Positions 25 to 11,996 of a stretch of DNA of 14,458 nucleotides are shown one piece after another. Each line of letters begins with the position of its first letter. The stretch's first letter is position 1. Made by a program: the position numbers and the translations under genes. The stretch lies in NCBI GenBank assembly GCA_011620345.1, contig WOZJ01000046.1:1-14458 (forward strand). The letters run 5' to 3'. The DNA is from Nitrospirota bacterium. Its GTDB lineage: Bacteria > UBA2233. A model generated the notes under the pieces. It was given only the letters and a program-made list of their open reading frames with translations, was not told where the DNA came from and did no database searches.

Positions 25-2310
25 TTACGCACTAAACCGCCTGAGCCGGAGCGCGTTGGTGATCACTGAAACCGAACTCAGGCTCATAGCGGCCGCCGCG
101 ATGACAGGGCTCAAAAGTAGCCCGAAGGACGGATAGAAAACCCCCGCCGCCACCGGGATGGCCAGCGCGTTGTAGCCGAAGGCGAACAGGAGGTTTTGTT
201 TGATATTGCGTACCGTTGCCTTACTTAGCCGCCTTGCCCGTAAGATACCCTCCAAATCGGGCCTCATGAGCGTCACGCCCGCGCTTTCGATCGCCACGTC
301 CGTCCCGGAGCCCATGGCGATTCCCACGTCGGCCTTGGCCAGCGCGGGAGCGTCGTTGATCCCGTCACCGGCCATTGCCACGACCCTGCCCTCTTTTTGC
401 AGGCGCTCGACAATTGCTTGTTTTTGGTCCGGCAACGTCTCGGCGTAGACATCATCGATACCGAGCCTTCCCGCGATGGCCCTTGCTGTCGCAAGGCGAT
501 CTCCGGTGACCATAGAGACCCTGAGACCTTCTTTGTGGAGCGCTTCGATTGCGTCGCTTGCGCCCTCTCGAATGGGGTCCTCCACGCGAACCAACCCGGC
601 CAGCCTGCCGTCGATCACGACAAAAACAAGCGTTTCCCCGCCCTTCTGGAATGTTTCCGTCCGCTCTATTATCCCGCCCGGGGCAATCCCGAATGCTTCG
701 AGCATCGCTTGGTTGCCTACGAGGACATCGTGGCCCTTGATTTTGCCGTGCACCCCCTTCCCGGCTACGGCTTCGAACGTTTCAACGCTTAGGATCGCTG
801 CCCCTAAGCGTTTGGCGGCTTGTACGAACGCATCCGCAAGGGGATGTTCGCTTGCCGCCTCCAAGCCAGCCGCAAACTCGAGAATCTGGTTTTCCTCGAA
901 CCCCTCTTCAGGCATGATGCCCTTAAGGACCGGCCGGCCCAGCGTAACCGTACCCGTCTTGTCGAGAACGAGCGTATCCACCCTGCAAAGCATCTCAATC
1001 GCCCGGGCATCCTTGAACAGAACGCCCATCTGTGCGCCTTTGCCGCTCGCGACCATGATCGACATCGGCGTAGCCAGGCCAAGGGCGCAAGGACAAGCAA
1101 TCAAAAGGACGGCGATCGCGCTCAAGAGCGCGTACGTAAGCCTTGGGCTCGGCCCTAGCAAGGCCCACGCGGCAAACGCGGCCAATGCAATCAAAAGGAC
1201 GGCGGGGACGAAAACGCCGGCCACCTTATCGGCCAAGCGCTGGATGGGGGCGCGAGACCTTTGGGCATGCGCCACCATCTGGACGATCCGGGCGAGCACC
1301 GTCTCCTCCCCCACCCTTTTTGCGGTCATAATCAGCGAACCGTTCTTATTGAGCGTTCCGCCGATAAGCGGATCTCCGAGACTTTTCTCTACAGGGATGG
1401 GCTCGCCCGTAACCATCGATTCATCCACGGCGCTCTTTCCTTCGAAGACCTCGCCGTCCACGGGGATGCGCTCTCCGGGACGAACGCGAAGCCTGTCTCC
1501 AACCTGTACCTGCTCGATGGGAATATCTTCTTCTACGCCGTCACCCCGGAGACGCCGCGCCGTCCTCGGGGCAAGCTCCAAAAGAGACGCGATGGCGGCT
1601 CCGGTACGGCTCCTGGCCTTGAGCTCAAGAACCTGACCGAGCAGCACGAGCGTCACGATCAGCGCGGCGGATTCGAAGTAAACGGGAATGGAGCCGTCGG
1701 AGAGCCTGAACGCGTCCGGGAACAGCCCCGGAGCAAGCGCAGCGAGCACGCTGTACAGGTAGGCCACGCCCGTACCGAGCGCGATCAAGGTGAACATGTT
1801 GAGGCTTCGGTTGACAACCGAGGTATAGCCCCTTTGGAAGAAAGTCCAGCCTCCCCAAATGACGACCGGAGTGGCCAGAAAAAGCTCGAGCCAAACACCC
1901 GCCTTATGCGGCACGGCAACACCAAGGATCCCCTCGAGCGCCATGCCACCCATAGAAATCAAAAGAATAAGAAACGACAAAACGGCGCTTACATAAAACC
2001 GCCTTGTCATCGCCTTGAGCTCGGGGTCTTCTTTGGGAAGGGGTTCGGGCTCTCTGGGCTCCAAAGCCATCCCGCAGATTGGGCAGCTTCCCGGGGCATC
2101 CTGGATGACCTCCGGGTGCATCGGGCATGTCCAGCGTGTTTTCAGGGTATGCACCGGGGTTTTGCGCTCCAAGGCCATGCCGCACTTGGGGCAGGCCCCT
2201 GGAGTCTCCGAACTGACCCCAGGACACATCGGACATACGTATGGGGCTTTTGAACCTTGATTATGCGCTTGACAATGCGCGTGCTTTGAGTGTTCGTCTA
2301 TTTCAGCCAT
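25..2310 (-). CDS. copA: Cu+-exporting P1B-type ATPase with two N-terminal Cys-rich metal-binding modules
   Basis: This 761-residue protein should pump Cu+ (or Ag+) out of the cytoplasm across the inner membrane, driven by ATP. The N-terminus is His-rich and is followed by two heavy-metal-binding modules: C26-P-M-C29 with C40-P-K-C-G-M45, and C62-P-M-H-P66 with C76-P-I-C-G-M81. The ATPase core is complete: TGE at 301-303, the metal-site CPC at 406-408, the phosphorylated D450 in DKTGT, the nucleotide-site HP at 489-490, and GDGINDAP from 648. The last membrane segments carry YN and MSLSS, which with CPC mark the Cu+ (P1B-1) class. There is no ferredoxin-like HMA domain with a single CxxC. The ATG has a good ribosome site, AAGGGG, 7-8 bases upstream. 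The gene is divergent from an acyl-CoA ligase, about 3.8 kb from the cus-type operon. The family call is secure; Cu versus Ag preference is not decided. Confidence 0.96.
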
Positions 2311-5610: not shown

Positions 5611-5639
5611 ATAGTAAATCTTCTCGCTAGATGTGTCAA
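5611..5639 (-). promoter_or_regulatory. Sigma70-type promoter of cysK
   Basis: Read on the minus strand, a perfect TTGACA (5639-5634) is followed after 17 bp by TACTAT (5616-5611), which runs on into TATAAA (5613-5608). Transcription would start about 40 bases before the cysK ATG. The -35 begins 6 bp after the stop codon of the upstream small gene, so cysK can be expressed independently of it. Confidence 0.6.
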
Positions 5640-5645
5640 TACGCG

Positions 5646-5951
5646 TTATTCATCGAGTTTAGGGGCTTCGTTTTCATGGTGCCGTTCGTGATGAGACTCT
5701 TGTCGTTGGGACGGCTTTTGCCCTGGCTTGCCGCGTTGAAGGGTTCTTCCGCACTCGGGGCATTTACCGGGCCCATCGTAGGGCTTTTCTGGGTGGTAGG
5801 GGCAGTAGAAGAGGTCTTGGGCGGCAAACAAAACATTTGGGGGACCCGTTTGTGCGGAGGAAGCAAGCACGCTGCCATCAAACTTAAGGTCAGTACCCAA
5901 CGTCCAAAAGAACATTGAGGCAAACGATAAAAAAAATACCGCACGTTGCAT
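5646..5951 (-). CDS. Small exported or membrane-anchored protein with a Cys/His metal-binding module and His-rich tail
   Basis: I do not recognise a named gene. The 101-residue product starts with Arg and a hydrophobic stretch (about 4-19), then a possible signal-peptidase site near residue 33 (ASSA before Q34). This suggests a periplasmic or anchored protein. Residues 49-71 form a module with C50-P-Y-H53-P and C64-P-E-C67-G, laid out like the heavy-metal-binding domains of CopA and CusB in this window. The two Met of the usual CPMHP and CGM are Tyr52 and Arg69 here. A tail rich in His follows (H87, H88, H91, H92), with acidic residues. The start is an ATG preceded by AAAGGAGG at 7-8 bases, a strong site. 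The gene is divergent from the cus-type operon, so a periplasmic metal-binding or chaperone role is plausible. Zn or Ni binding is an alternative to Cu. Confidence 0.72.
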   Translation of the reverse strand: MQRAVFFLSFASMFFWTLGTDLKFDGSVLASSAQTGPPNVLFAAQDLFYCPYHPEKPYDGPGKCPECGRTLQRGKPGQKPSQRQESHHERHHENEAPKLDE

Positions 5952-6045: not shown

Positions 6046-6073
6046 TTGCAACTATTTCTACATGATGTAGAAT
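6046..6073 (+). promoter_or_regulatory. Probable promoter of the cus-type operon with overlapping 13-bp palindromic operator
   Basis: TTGCAA (6046-6051) and TAGAAT (6068-6073) are 16 bp apart and match the consensus at four and five positions. The perfect palindrome CTACATGATGTAG (6058-6070) covers the spacer end and half of the -10, where a bound repressor would block RNA polymerase. Its TACA/TGTA half-sites recall operators of the CopY/BlaI/MecI winged-helix family, but those I know have a 2-bp centre and this has 3. An isolated perfect TTGACA at 6026-6031 has no good -10 partner. No regulator gene is in the window. Confidence 0.5.
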
Positions 6074-6120: not shown

Positions 6121-7425
6121 ATGAAGGTTCATTTCTACCACGTCATCGTCCAGATCATTCTTGGCGTGCCCCTTTGTTGCTTCAGCGCGTCCCTCGGCAC
6201 AAGGGCTTGGGCGGAGGAAAGCCGCATCGGTTTAGCAACGCTCATCGAGGAGGCCAAAATGGAAAACCCTGAGCTCAAGCGGGCCAAAAGCGCGCTAGAA
6301 GCGGCAAGAGCTATCCCAAAGCAGGTCAGCACGCTGCCAAACCCTGAGCTCACGTTTGGCCTGACCAACATCGGCTCGCGATACTCGGTAGGGAACGACA
6401 CAATGAGCATGCTGGAAGTCGGCATCAGCCAGCCCTTGCCGTACCCTAAAAAGTTGCACCTTTTAGGCCGGGCGGCGGATGCCGAGGCAGATGCGGCGGA
6501 CGAAGCCTACCGCAAGACCCTCTTTGAGGTCATATCAAGGCTTAAGTTGGCCTACTTCGATTATTGGCTCGAAGAAGAAACGAGGAGAATTTTTTTTGAA
6601 ATGCTCGGCCTTTTTAAGGCCCTTCGTGGAAACGCGCTTGGCCGCTACGAGGTCGGAGAGGCGATACAACAGGACGTTCTCCTGGCGGACATCGAAATCG
6701 ATAGGATCAAAGAGCGCCTCGAGTTGCTCAACCCAGAAAAGGAGCGCCTCCAGGCCGAGATCAACGCCCTTCTGAATAGGCCGCCTTCCCAACCTTTGGG
6801 AATACCGGAACGCTTGGAGCCGGCCAAGCTTGGTTCCTCGCTCGACGACCTCGTTCAAACGGCCAAGGTGAGCTCCCCGGTCATTCAAGAAATGCACCGC
6901 CTTACAGATCGCGACCGAATCCGCTTAAAATATGCCAAGGCGGCCTACATCCCCGACTTTAGGCTGAGCGCAGGCTACGGCGACAGGGAGGGCCTAAGCC
7001 CCCAGTGGAGCGTGGGCCTTGGCATCGAGCTGCCACTGTACTTTTGGAGGAAGGAGGTCTATGGCGTCAAGGAGGCCGCGGCCAACCTCGTTGCGAGCAA
7101 GCAGGCCCAGCAGGATACCCTCCAGGGTACGCTCGCCCAAATACGGACTGCCTACTCTCAAGCCCTCACGGCCAAGCGTCTGGCTTCTCTCTACAGTGAG
7201 CACATCCTCCCCAAGGCTAGGGCCGCGCTCGAATCCTCGCTGGCGAGCTACAGCGTGGGCAGGCTCGATTTCTTGGGCGTCATGACAAACGCCACGACAC
7301 TCCTGGAATACGAGATCGCCCATGCCGCAAAGATCGCGGAAGCTAAGAAGGCGATTGCCAAGATCGAGGAGCTTACCGGTGTGCCGTTTACGGAAAACAT
7401 AAACATAAACAAGAAGGAGTCTTGA
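6121..7425 (+). CDS. Outer-membrane efflux channel of the heavy-metal RND system (CusC/TolC type)
   Basis: This is the outer-membrane factor of a tripartite metal efflux system, forming the trimeric channel through which ions leave the cell. The 434-residue form starts with a signal peptide (about 1-31, cleavage after A-W-A before E32). It then has the two repeats typical of the outer membrane efflux protein family. The first holds STLPNPELTFGL and QPLPYPKKL; the second holds YIPDFRLSAGYG, a PLYFWR segment, and YSVGRLDFLGVM near the C-terminus. Reading frame is open up to 5950, but that extension crosses the promoter and the divergent gene's control region. ATG 6121 has a weak GGA 8 bases upstream; ATG 6112 in the same frame is possible. 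There is no obvious lipobox. The stop overlaps the TTG at the head of the next gene's frame, showing tight operon packing. Confidence 0.9.
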   Translation: MKVHFYHVIVQIILGVPLCCFSASLGTRAWAEESRIGLATLIEEAKMENPELKRAKSALEAARAIPKQVSTLPNPELTFGLTNIGSRYSVGNDTMSMLEVGISQPLPYPKKLHLLGRAADAEADAADEAYRKTLFEVISRLKLAYFDYWLEEETRRIFFEMLGLFKALRGNALGRYEVGEAIQQDVLLADIEIDRIKERLELLNPEKERLQAEINALLNRPPSQPLGIPERLEPAKLGSSLDDLVQTAKVSSPVIQEMHRLTDRDRIRLKYAKAAYIPDFRLSAGYGDREGLSPQWSVGLGIELPLYFWRKEVYGVKEAAANLVASKQAQQDTLQGTLAQIRTAYSQALTAKRLASLYSEHILPKARAALESSLASYSVGRLDFLGVMTNATTLLEYEIAHAAKIAEAKKAIAKIEELTGVPFTENININKKES

Positions 7426-7427
7426 AC

Positions 7428-8753
7428 GTGGACCGCGAACAAAAACATCGTCGCGATAAGGGCTTACGCATAAAAATCACGGGAGCCACGGTTTTTCTTG
7501 GGCTCGTCCTTGCCTGTGGCGCCGGTATTGGCTATTTCATGGAAGTGGGTTCTACAAGGCTTGCTCGGGCGAAATCTAGAAGCGAACAACAAGCCCAAAC
7601 CTACCACTGCCCGATGCATCCGAACTACACCTCGGACAAGCCGGGCAACTGCCCCATCTGCGGGATGAACCTCGTTCCCATCGAGGAAGAGACCGACACC
7701 AAGCACGAAGAAGACCAAGCTGAAACTGCCGTTCCTGGTAGGGCAAGCATCCGGATCAGTCCCAAGAAAAGACAGGCCTCAGGGGTGGAAACCGTTCAGG
7801 TAGCCCGCGGGCCGTTTATCAAAACAATCCGGACCGTGGGCAGGGTCGCTTACGCTGAGCCTATGATTTCGGAGGTTTATGCAAAGTTCGAAGGCTGGGT
7901 GGAGAAGCTCTACGTGAATAAAACAGGCGATTGGGTCGAGAGGGGAAGGCCTTTGTTTTCGGTTTACAGCCCAGAACTCGTCTCCACGCAGCAGGAATTC
8001 CTTCTGGCCTTGAACCTACAAAAAACCCAAGGGATCGGAGCAGATGCCCTCCTTAAGGCTGCGAGAAGAAGGCTTGCGTTCTTTGATATCGACGTAGACC
8101 AAACCCGCCACCTCGAAGCGACAGGCCAAACAAGCAAGACGCTTCTTTTGCGCGCCCCCCAAAGCGGTTTCATCATCCAAAAGAATGTATTCGAAGGCAA
8201 AAAAGTTTCCAAGGGCGAGAGCCTCTATACCATCGCCGACATTTCCACGGTATGGGTCTTGGCCGATGCCTACGAATCGGACCTGCCTTTCGTTTCGCTC
8301 GGGCAACAAGCGAAAATCAGCCTCTCTTACTACCCGAGTGCAGCGTTCTCGGGGCGCGTGGCCTATATTTACCCGTACCTCGAGCCAAACACCCGCACAA
8401 ACAAAGTCCGGATCGAGGTCAAAAACGCCGATTTCAAGCTCAAGCCCGACATGTACGCCCATATAGAGCTCGCTGCGAACATGGGCGAGCGGCTCAGCGT
8501 TCCCAAATCGGCCGTCTTGGATTCTGGCACCCGGAAGGTGGCCTTCCTCGACATGGGCAAGGGCTACTTCGAACCCAGGGAGCTCAAAACTGGGCTCGAA
8601 AACGAAACATCCTACGCGGTGCTGGATGGTCTCAAGGAAAACGACAGGGTCGTTGATAAGGCTGCCTTCATGGTTGACTCTGAATCGAGCCTGAAGGCAG
8701 GGCTCGGCCAGATGGGCGCCCCTTCAGGACACGCGGGCCATACGGGGCACTAA
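7428..8753 (+). CDS. cusB: Periplasmic adaptor of the heavy-metal RND system, with Cys-rich metal-binding module (CusB type)
   Basis: This membrane-fusion protein links the inner-membrane pump to the outer-membrane channel and probably hands metal to the pump. The 441-residue product has one N-terminal hydrophobic segment (about 15-38) as anchor or uncleaved signal. The module C61-P-M-H-P65 and C75-P-I-C-G-M80 follows. The adaptor core includes FEGWVEKLYVN, the PLFSVYSPELVSTQQEF hairpin entry, and the lipoyl and barrel segments. The C-terminus ends in GHAGHTGH, a further likely metal-binding tail. I choose GTG at 7428 because AAGGAG lies 8 bases upstream; the in-frame TTG at 7422 is only 2 bases from it. 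The gene follows the channel gene directly and abuts the pump gene. Cu+/Ag+ is favoured by the CPMHP module and the pump's signature, though Zn/Co/Cd (CzcB-like) transport is not excluded. Confidence 0.93.
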   Translation: MDREQKHRRDKGLRIKITGATVFLGLVLACGAGIGYFMEVGSTRLARAKSRSEQQAQTYHCPMHPNYTSDKPGNCPICGMNLVPIEEETDTKHEEDQAETAVPGRASIRISPKKRQASGVETVQVARGPFIKTIRTVGRVAYAEPMISEVYAKFEGWVEKLYVNKTGDWVERGRPLFSVYSPELVSTQQEFLLALNLQKTQGIGADALLKAARRRLAFFDIDVDQTRHLEATGQTSKTLLLRAPQSGFIIQKNVFEGKKVSKGESLYTIADISTVWVLADAYESDLPFVSLGQQAKISLSYYPSAAFSGRVAYIYPYLEPNTRTNKVRIEVKNADFKLKPDMYAHIELAANMGERLSVPKSAVLDSGTRKVAFLDMGKGYFEPRELKTGLENETSYAVLDGLKENDRVVDKAAFMVDSESSLKAGLGQMGAPSGHAGHTGH

Positions 8754-11700
8754 ATGATCGAGCGAATCATCGAGCTATCGGCTAAAAATAAGCTGCTCGT
8801 ATTCCTTGTGTGCCTGTTCTTGGCCTTCTGGGGCGTTTATTGCTTCAACCGGGTTACACTGGACGCGCTGCCCGATCTCTCGGATACTCAGGTAATCGTC
8901 CTTGCACGTTGGGACAGACCTCCCAACATAATCGAAGACCAGCTCACCTACCCGATCGTCACCTCCCTTTTGGGGGCGCCCAAGGTAAAAACGATCCGCG
9001 GGATCTCGGACTACGGGTTTTCTTACGTCTACGTGATCTTCGAGGACGGAACGGACATCTACTGGGCCCGCTCGCGGGTTCTGGAGTACCTCTCAAAAGT
9101 GACGCCGAACCTCCCCAAGGACGCCCAGGTCGAGATAGGGCCGGATGCCACGGGCGTAGGCTGGGTCTACGAGTACGCGCTCGTGGACAGATCGGGCAAG
9201 CACACCCTTCAAGAGCTTAGGAGCTTTCAAGACTGGCAGCTCAAGTACGCCCTGCAGAGCGTACCGGGCGTGGCCGAGGTGGCGAGCCTCGGCGGTTTCG
9301 TCAAGCAATACCAGGTCATCCCCAACCCGGAAGCGCTTTTAGCATACGGAATTCCAATCGATGCGCTCGTCAGCGCCGTTCGCGCGTCAAACCAAGAGGT
9401 GGGCGCCAGGCTCCTTGAGCTTTCGGGAAGGGAGTACATGCTTACCGTTCGGGGTTATGTCCAAAACCTCGAAGACATCAAAACCGCCGTCCTTAAGGTA
9501 GACAAAAACGGAACTCCCGTAACCGTCGGCGACGTCGCCCAAGTTCGGCTTGGTCCCGAGATGCGAAGAGGCGTGGCCGAGCTAGACGGCAAGGGCGAGG
9601 TGACAGGCGGGATCGTCGTCATGCGCTACGGGGTCAACGCGCTGGAAGTGATCCGGGCGATCGAGCAAAAAATGAAAGAAGTGTCTTTCCCGGAAGGCAT
9701 CGAACTTGTCCCCACGTACGACCGCTCCGGGTTAATTCTTGAGGCCACGCACACGCTTCGAAAAAAGCTGCTCGAAGAGATGGCCGTTGTTTCAGGAGTG
9801 ATCCTCTTGTTTTTGGTTCACTTCCCTTCCGCGGTCATCCCCATCGCCACGCTGCCGTTTGCCGCGCTGTTGGCCTTCATCCCGATGTACTACCTTGGGA
9901 TCGGCGCGAACATCATGAGCCTGGGCGGGATCGCCATCGCCATCGGGGCAATGGTGGATGCCTCGATCGTCGTCGTGGAGAACGTCTACAAGCGAATCGC
10001 CGAGCCCCACGAACAAGGGCAAGGCTCGCATGATGCCGGCATCCTCGAAGCGATCAAGGAGGTCGGGAGGCCAAGTTTTTACTCTCTTTTGGTCATCGCC
10101 GTCGCCTTTACCCCCATCTTCGCGCTGGAAGCCTACGAGGGCCGGATGTTTAAGCCCTTGGCCTATACCAAAAACCTTGCCATGCTCTTTAGCGCCTGCC
10201 TGGCCATCACGCTCGACCCGGCCCTTAGGATGCTGCTAACAAGGGAAAAACGCTTTACGTTTAAGCCTGCCTGGCTTTCTCGGCTCTCCTCGGGCATCTT
10301 CGTGGGGACCTACTACCCCGAGCACCGCCATCCCGTCTCCAGGGGGCTGTTTGCCCTCTACGAGCCTTTGATCCGGTTCGTACTAAAAAGGCCTCGGGTC
10401 GTAATCTTTGCGGCATTCATCTTGTTCGTCCTCTCGATGCCATTGTTCTTCAAAATCGGCAGCGAGTTTATGCCGCCCTTAAACGAGGGATCGATTTTGT
10501 ACATGCCCACCACGCCGCCGGGCATTTCGATCACCGAGGCTTCAAAACTCCTGCAGGTTCAAGACCAAATCTTGAGCAGCTTTCCCGAAGTCGAGCGGGT
10601 CTTCGGCAAGGCGGGCCGCGCACTCACCTCGACAGACCCGGCGCCATTATCGATGATGGAGACGACGGTTCTTTTAAGGCCCCAAAACGAATGGAGAAAA
10701 AATCCCAGGTGGTACTCCGAGCACGTCCCCGAGTTTCTCCAGGGCCCTTTAAGGCTCATCTGGCCAGACCGAATAGGCTACGAAGAATTGATCGCCCAAA
10801 TGGACGCCGCGCTTAAGCTGCCTGGCCAGATCAACTCCTGGACGATGCCCGTCAAGGGCAGAATCGACATGCTCACAACAGGCATTCGTACGCCCGTAGG
10901 CATCAAGATCTTAGGAGACGACCTCTCTAAAATTGAGCGGGTCGGGGCCGATATCGAGGCAATCCTAGGCGGCCTTAAAGGAACTCGAAGCGTCTACGCC
11001 GAACGGACGGCTGGCGGGTATTACTTGGACATCCAGCCCGACCGCACCGAGCTTGCAAGGTATGGCCTTACGATCCAAGGGCTCCAAGAGACGCTGATGT
11101 CCGCCATCGGCGGGGCCAACGTCTCGGAGACAATCGAGGGCAGGGAGCGCTACCCTATCAACGTTCGGTATCCAACAGGGCGGCGTGATGATGTCGAATC
11201 CCTAAAGAGGATTTACGTCTCCACGCCGGCCGGCGCTCAGGTTCCCCTAGGGCAGCTAGCCGAACTGCGCCTAAAGACAGGCCCGGGGATGATCCGGGAC
11301 GAAAACGGCAGGCTCGCGGGCTACGTGTTCGTGGACACCCAAGGCGTGGACATAGGCAGCTACACGAGCCAGGCCAAGGCCCTCTTGAGGGATAAGCTAA
11401 AAACCCCGCCCGGCTACACGCTTACCTTCTCGGGCCAGTACGAATCGATGCAGCGGGTTGAAAAGCGAATGCGCTTCGTCGTGCCCTTGACGCTGTTTAT
11501 GATTTTTTTGCTCATCCATTTAAACACCCGTTCGTACACCAAGACGCTCATCGTCATGCTGGCCGTCCCTTTTTCGCTCATCGGGGTGGCCTGGGCCTTG
11601 TGGCTCTTGGGCTATAATTTCAGCGTGGGCGTCATGGCTGGGATCATCGCGCTCTTGGGCGTGGATGCCGAAACGGGGATCTTTATGCTGGTTTATTTGG

Positions 11701-11996
11701 ACCTGGCCTACGAGCGTCGGCTCCGTACGGGTAAAATGCAAAACCTAAAAGACCTCAAAACGGCCATCCACGAAGGGGCACTAGGCAGGGTAAGACCAAA
11801 GATGATGACGGTCATGACGACGATCGTCGGACTTCTGCCCATCATGTGGGCACAGACCTACGAGATCGGCGCGGACGTGATGAAGCGGATCGCCGCACCC
11901 ATGGTGGGCGGAATCATGAGCTCGTTTTTCATGGAGCTCCTCGTGTACCCTGCGATCTATCTCCTCTGGAAACAGAGGGGACTCCATAAAACTTAA
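8754..11996 (+). CDS. cusA: Heavy-metal efflux RND pump, CusA/CzcA family
   Basis: This 1080-residue inner-membrane proton/metal antiporter drives export through the CusCBA-type complex. It shows the RND layout: one membrane helix near the start (about 14-31), a large periplasmic loop, a helix bundle with the proton-relay motif GAMVDASIVVVEN (D402), a second periplasmic loop, and a C-terminal bundle. LYMPTTPPG (M584) and RIDMLTTGIRTPVGIK (M706) match two of the three methionines of the Cu+/Ag+ site of E. coli CusA as I align them. The segment with the third (around 640-683) is rebuilt, with an insertion after NEWRKN and no clear equivalent. Start and stop of neighbours abut exactly (TAA then ATG), with GGGG 6 bases before the ATG inside cusB, so translation is probably coupled. 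Length and motifs are complete. Cu+/Ag+ specificity is likely but not proven. Confidence 0.95.
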   Translation: MIERIIELSAKNKLLVFLVCLFLAFWGVYCFNRVTLDALPDLSDTQVIVLARWDRPPNIIEDQLTYPIVTSLLGAPKVKTIRGISDYGFSYVYVIFEDGTDIYWARSRVLEYLSKVTPNLPKDAQVEIGPDATGVGWVYEYALVDRSGKHTLQELRSFQDWQLKYALQSVPGVAEVASLGGFVKQYQVIPNPEALLAYGIPIDALVSAVRASNQEVGARLLELSGREYMLTVRGYVQNLEDIKTAVLKVDKNGTPVTVGDVAQVRLGPEMRRGVAELDGKGEVTGGIVVMRYGVNALEVIRAIEQKMKEVSFPEGIELVPTYDRSGLILEATHTLRKKLLEEMAVVSGVILLFLVHFPSAVIPIATLPFAALLAFIPMYYLGIGANIMSLGGIAIAIGAMVDASIVVVENVYKRIAEPHEQGQGSHDAGILEAIKEVGRPSFYSLLVIAVAFTPIFALEAYEGRMFKPLAYTKNLAMLFSACLAITLDPALRMLLTREKRFTFKPAWLSRLSSGIFVGTYYPEHRHPVSRGLFALYEPLIRFVLKRPRVVIFAAFILFVLSMPLFFKIGSEFMPPLNEGSILYMPTTPPGISITEASKLLQVQDQILSSFPEVERVFGKAGRALTSTDPAPLSMMETTVLLRPQNEWRKNPRWYSEHVPEFLQGPLRLIWPDRIGYEELIAQMDAALKLPGQINSWTMPVKGRIDMLTTGIRTPVGIKILGDDLSKIERVGADIEAILGGLKGTRSVYAERTAGGYYLDIQPDRTELARYGLTIQGLQETLMSAIGGANVSETIEGRERYPINVRYPTGRRDDVESLKRIYVSTPAGAQVPLGQLAELRLKTGPGMIRDENGRLAGYVFVDTQGVDIGSYTSQAKALLRDKLKTPPGYTLTFSGQYESMQRVEKRMRFVVPLTLFMIFLLIHLNTRSYTKTLIVMLAVPFSLIGVAWALWLLGYNFSVGVMAGIIALLGVDAETGIFMLVYLDLAYERRLRTGKMQNLKDLKTAIHEGALGRVRPKMMTVMTTIVGLLPIMWAQTYEIGADVMKRIAAPMVGGIMSSFFMELLVYPAIYLLWKQRGLHKT

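Follow-up and report, generated by a model that had tools for sequence, protein, structure and literature searches.

What does a small, probably exported protein contribute beside a copper- and silver-type efflux operon when its heavy-metal-binding domain (HMBD) lacks both of the usual Met? The question is raised by a gene on the minus strand of a Nitrospirota contig, within the window, by which we mean the whole stretch of 14,458 nucleotides analysed here. The gene and its parts are as follows:

5646-5951 (-), stop codon included: gene of the small, putatively exported 101-aa HMBD protein, recognised by its ORF, PF19335 match, ortholog and dN/dS
5898-5942 (-): N-terminal hydrophobic stretch, residues 4-18, a putative signal peptide or anchor with no lipobox Cys, recognised from hydropathy and by eye
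5736-5810 (-): HMBD, CPYHP-x6-PGKCPECGR, residues 48-72, with candidate ligands C50, H53, C64 and C67, and with Y52 and R69 replacing Met
5649-5693 (-): C-terminal tail, residues 87-101, with four His (H87, H88, H91 and H92), weakly constrained

The ORF begins with ATG and carries the Shine-Dalgarno sequence AGGAGG 8 nt upstream, bearing out the strong ribosome site of the original prediction. Its syntenic ortholog, which has a GTG start, lies at L033:5749-6054 (-) in Nitrospirae bacterium UBA2233 (the sister genome below); this is the only other genome of the phylum in the collection searched, and constraint is therefore assessed from two sequences. The gene order cysK, small gene, divergent cus-type operon is common to both genomes, and the predicted divergent orientation of the small gene and cusC is thus found in each. 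The two proteins are 81% identical. Over the whole gene dN/dS is 0.38 (16 synonymous and 22 nonsynonymous differences, Fisher p = 0.007), and over HMBD residues 47-73 it is 0.17 (nonsynonymous 3 in 61 sites vs synonymous 5 in 20, Fisher p = 0.02), which for a two-sequence comparison is modest but consistent evidence of selection. The possibility that homologs use another reading frame of the same DNA is not borne out: the one rival frame on the minus strand, 5636-5944, is free of stops in each of the two genomes but evolves without constraint (dN/dS 1.05, vs 0.38 for the annotated frame), and the remaining alternative frames over the gene are interrupted by stops. The Shine-Dalgarno sequence, the HMBD, the syntenic ortholog and purifying selection together identify a real gene.

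The HMBD match is not a chance one, since PF19335 scores 34.9 bits (E = 1.5e-8) against a curated gathering cut-off of 23.6, and the CPxHP...PGxCPxCG framework of the family is present, with CPYHP at residues 50-54 and CPECGR at 64-69. An AlphaFold model of the protein is of low confidence overall (mean pLDDT 60.8, pTM 0.30), with ten-residue mean pLDDT values of 80 and 87 in the HMBD core (residues 51-70). The best Foldseek match of this model is the HMBD of LpCopA (8OVL; prob 0.99, E = 0.099, rmsd 1.1 A over 26 columns), and a second aligner, VIA, gives Z = 3.2 over 34 residues; taken by themselves, these matches of a predicted structure are weak, and they are in line with the match at the sequence level. 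Zinc proteins among the Foldseek matches had E values above 1 only and were not counted as evidence.

As predicted, both usual Met of the module are replaced (Tyr52 and Arg69), leaving a CxxH plus CxxC set. C50, Y52, H53, C64, C67 and R69 are all kept in the ortholog, as are P51, P54 and the PG pair. The only Met in the protein are M1 and M13, and there is therefore none beyond the N-terminal hydrophobic stretch in either species. The published coordination data on LpCopA are what make this loss meaningful. NMR and mutants identify M44, C59 and M61 as the Ag+ ligands of its HMBD, mutation of M44 or M61 reduces or abolishes Ag+ binding, and C42, C56 and the His are not Ag+ ligands; its fold and the residues C42, C56, C59 and H45 correspond to zinc-binding domains (PMC11970713). 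A gap-free alignment places Y52, C67 and R69 at M44, C59 and M61, so the small protein has no Met-Cys-Met trigonal site of the LpCopA type and, by homology, would have lost two of the three Ag+ ligands with the zinc-type set whole. Metal is therefore probably bound differently, perhaps as zinc, and sequence cannot decide between a Zn or Ni and a Cu specificity. A competing possibility, to which we give a lower but appreciable probability, is that the protein continues to buffer Cu(I)/Ag(I), its three Cys, perhaps with the tail His, holding a soft ion, and the loss of Met lowering or retuning affinity before hand-over to CusB/CusA. Retention of C67, the counterpart of the sole LpCopA Cys ligand, is in keeping with such a buffer, but the effect of the M44 and M61 mutations argues against it, as both positions are conserved as Tyr and Arg here.

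How unusual the Met-free form is was estimated with one DNA pattern in 386 diverse genomes, which gave 138 matches judged by eye from the printed DNA, 5 of them apparently unrelated. Both Met are kept in 129/133 HMBDs, one lacks only the first (G264), one lacks only the second (G026), and two have neither (G036 and G237; 95% interval 0.2-5.3%). The Met-free variant is therefore rare, at a rate that is approximate and could be low because the pattern requires the codon after CG to end in C, G or T and passes over the window gene, in which the Arg codon has a final A. The near-constancy of the Met also weighs against a Cu(I)/Ag(I) buffer that works without them. The expectation that Tyr and Arg would be conserved in homologs held for the one ortholog and no further: among 84,980 species the pattern CPYHP-x6-PGxCPxCG matched the sister genome only, none beyond the genus, and it had no match in viral contigs. 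No relatives of the small protein were found in genome contigs, a weak negative because exact peptide patterns were used and very near genomes were excluded. Of the 8 records returned by a plasmid tblastn search with the protein, 7 carry an annotation as metal or copper ATPases and 1 has none; a looser Tyr/Asn pattern matched mostly other CxxH...CxxC sequences, which differ in spacing, and neither NCBIfam nor PADLOC was informative for the small protein. No counterpart of the Met-free small protein of G036 turned up in the 6 phylum mates searched, where the HMBD matches listed were in frames of at least 467 aa.

The loss of two near-invariant Met, the rarity of the variant outside the genus and a near-neutral C-terminal tail would also suit a degenerate HMBD without metal handling, retained, if indeed it is, for a structural role or for protein interactions. 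We consider this unlikely, as the four candidate Zn ligands, the neighbouring Pro and PG and the Tyr/Arg pair are shared by both genomes and the module itself has the low dN/dS given above.

The hydrophobic N-terminus of the original prediction is present (mean KD 1.87 over residues 4-18), and the protein is probably secreted or periplasmic, as judged from N-terminal hydropathy. The His-rich tail has fared less well: its four His are there, but only those at 88 and 92 hold their position in the ortholog and dN/dS for this segment is about 1 between the two sequences, and the tail should not be stressed.

The remaining features of the locus are the following:

25-2310 (-): copA-like P-type ATPase with two HMBDs (CPMCP...CGM and CPMHP...CGM), by family and motif match
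6056-6072 (unstranded): palindrome TTCTACATgATGTAGAA, perfect 8-1-8, a candidate operator overlapping the predicted cusC -10
6121-7425 (+): cusC-like outer-membrane efflux protein (PF02321), with start 6121 picked from a signal-like N-terminus
7422-8753 (+): cusB-like adaptor with an ordinary HMBD (CPMHP...CGM), by family and motif match
8754-11996 (+): cusA-like RND pump, by family match, with Met aligned with M573, M623 and M672 of E. coli CusA

These last three residues form the Met triad of the E. coli pump. Its gene content, a CopA-like ATPase together with a CusA homolog whose Met triad is aligned, gives the locus a Cu(I)/Ag(I)-like character, a setting that favours the Cu(I)/Ag(I)-buffer explanation and is equally in keeping with a metal-binding accessory of the efflux locus. 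It should be noted that this neighbourhood does not prove a function shared between the small gene and the efflux genes. In the first HMBD of the CopA-like ATPase (2167-2241 (-)), Cys replaces His in this genome (CPMC). The arms of TTCTACATgATGTAGAA are each kept at 7/8 bases in the sister genome, and TTCTACANNNTGTAGAA has a single exact match in each of the two genomes, at the palindrome (6056-6072). A genome search found no CsoR as a candidate cus regulator. BlaI was rejected in that role, as the one BlaI-type gene is situated elsewhere, paired with a BlaR1-like peptidase gene; at L102 2658-4068 the BlaI-type repressor gene adjoins a gene of an M56/BlaR1-like membrane peptidase, away from the cus locus. 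Positions 5611-5639 (-), which lie between the small gene and cysK, read TTGACA-17-TACTAT, and both hexamers are also seen in the sister genome; cysK may therefore have its own promoter.

The suggestion of an undescribed type goes too far, since HMBD proteins that are small, look exported and carry the ordinary Met motif occur in distant genomes inside cus-type operons (L093, a 98-aa frame, and L094, a 65-aa frame) or near efflux genes (L095 and L096), their neighbours being recognised by eye from N-terminal sequences. These resemble the window protein in size, hydrophobic N-terminus, single HMBD and cusCBA-like neighbours, and the association of a small HMBD protein with a cus operon is not new; their existence is a further point for a Cu(I)/Ag(I) buffer and also for the efflux-accessory explanation favoured below. 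All four keep CPMHP...CGM, whereas the window protein does not, and those of L093 and L094 are lipoprotein-like and lie within the operon, whereas the window protein has no lipobox and is divergent. In L096 (3126-5975), a 144-aa ordinary-HMBD frame lies beside cusC/cusB-like and cysteine-synthase-like genes, resembling the neighbourhood in the window. The two Met-free cases elsewhere, which are sporadic, are the exported-looking proteins of L037 (CPNHP...CGA) and L101 (CPKHP...CGG), in which both Met are likewise replaced, but by residues other than Tyr and Arg. No copper gene was seen near the L037 HMBD in the 5.5 kb read. The L101 ORF (3622-4536) is longer and lipoprotein-like, its Met-free HMBD being followed by a second CxxH...CxxCG half. 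Compared with the HMBDs of LpCopA and of CopA/CusB-type proteins, the window protein is alike in its CPxHP-x6-PGxCPxCG core, gap-free alignment and predicted core fold; unlike them, it is free-standing, probably exported, and has Tyr and Arg at both coordinating Met positions. SilE is disordered and relies on His/Met motifs, those of SilE/PcoE being MxxHxxxxxHxxMxx and HxxMxxxHxxMxx; in CusF the residues used are His, Met and Trp (PMC5008109). With SilE/PcoE and CusF, compared from published descriptions, the window protein may share the role of a periplasmic metal buffer or donor beside RND efflux; the His/Met repeats of SilE/PcoE are absent, there being no Met beyond residue 13. Overall, the window protein is a real variant, though one of narrow scope, of a module already described, and not a new kind.

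The explanation that we favor, tentatively and at somewhat less than an even chance, is a periplasmic Cys3His metal-binding accessory of the Cu(I)/Ag(I) efflux locus. The HMBD would retain a rubredoxin-knuckle or zinc-ribbon-like core with C50, H53, C64 and C67, but of the three sulfur ligands by which LpCopA binds Ag(I), and presumably Cu(I) as well, it would keep only one. The protein, probably exported to the periplasm, may carry a tetrahedral Cys3His site for a divalent ion, Zn(II) for example, or for Cu(I) held by its Cys, and may assist the adjacent, divergently transcribed efflux system by buffering or sensing metal. Zn(II)-type binding is our preferred guess and Cys-held Cu(I) its main rival. 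Against the favoured explanation, the thiolates of three Cys can bind Cu(I) well, and periplasmic Cys need not be in the reduced form. We further speculate, with rather little expectation that it will prove correct, that the protein represents a natural switch in HMBD specificity, in which the loss of both Met turned the module into a periplasmic carrier, either of Zn(II) type or for Cu(I) held by Cys only, that serves a Cu/Ag efflux system, for example by sensing mismetallation.

The Tyr/Arg form is known so far from two genomes of one small lineage, and its reach is therefore limited. Since the Met pair is near-universal in the surveyed HMBDs and binds Ag+ in LpCopA, a conserved Met-free form amounts to a natural mutant, one that could reveal how the Cys and His of the module work by themselves.
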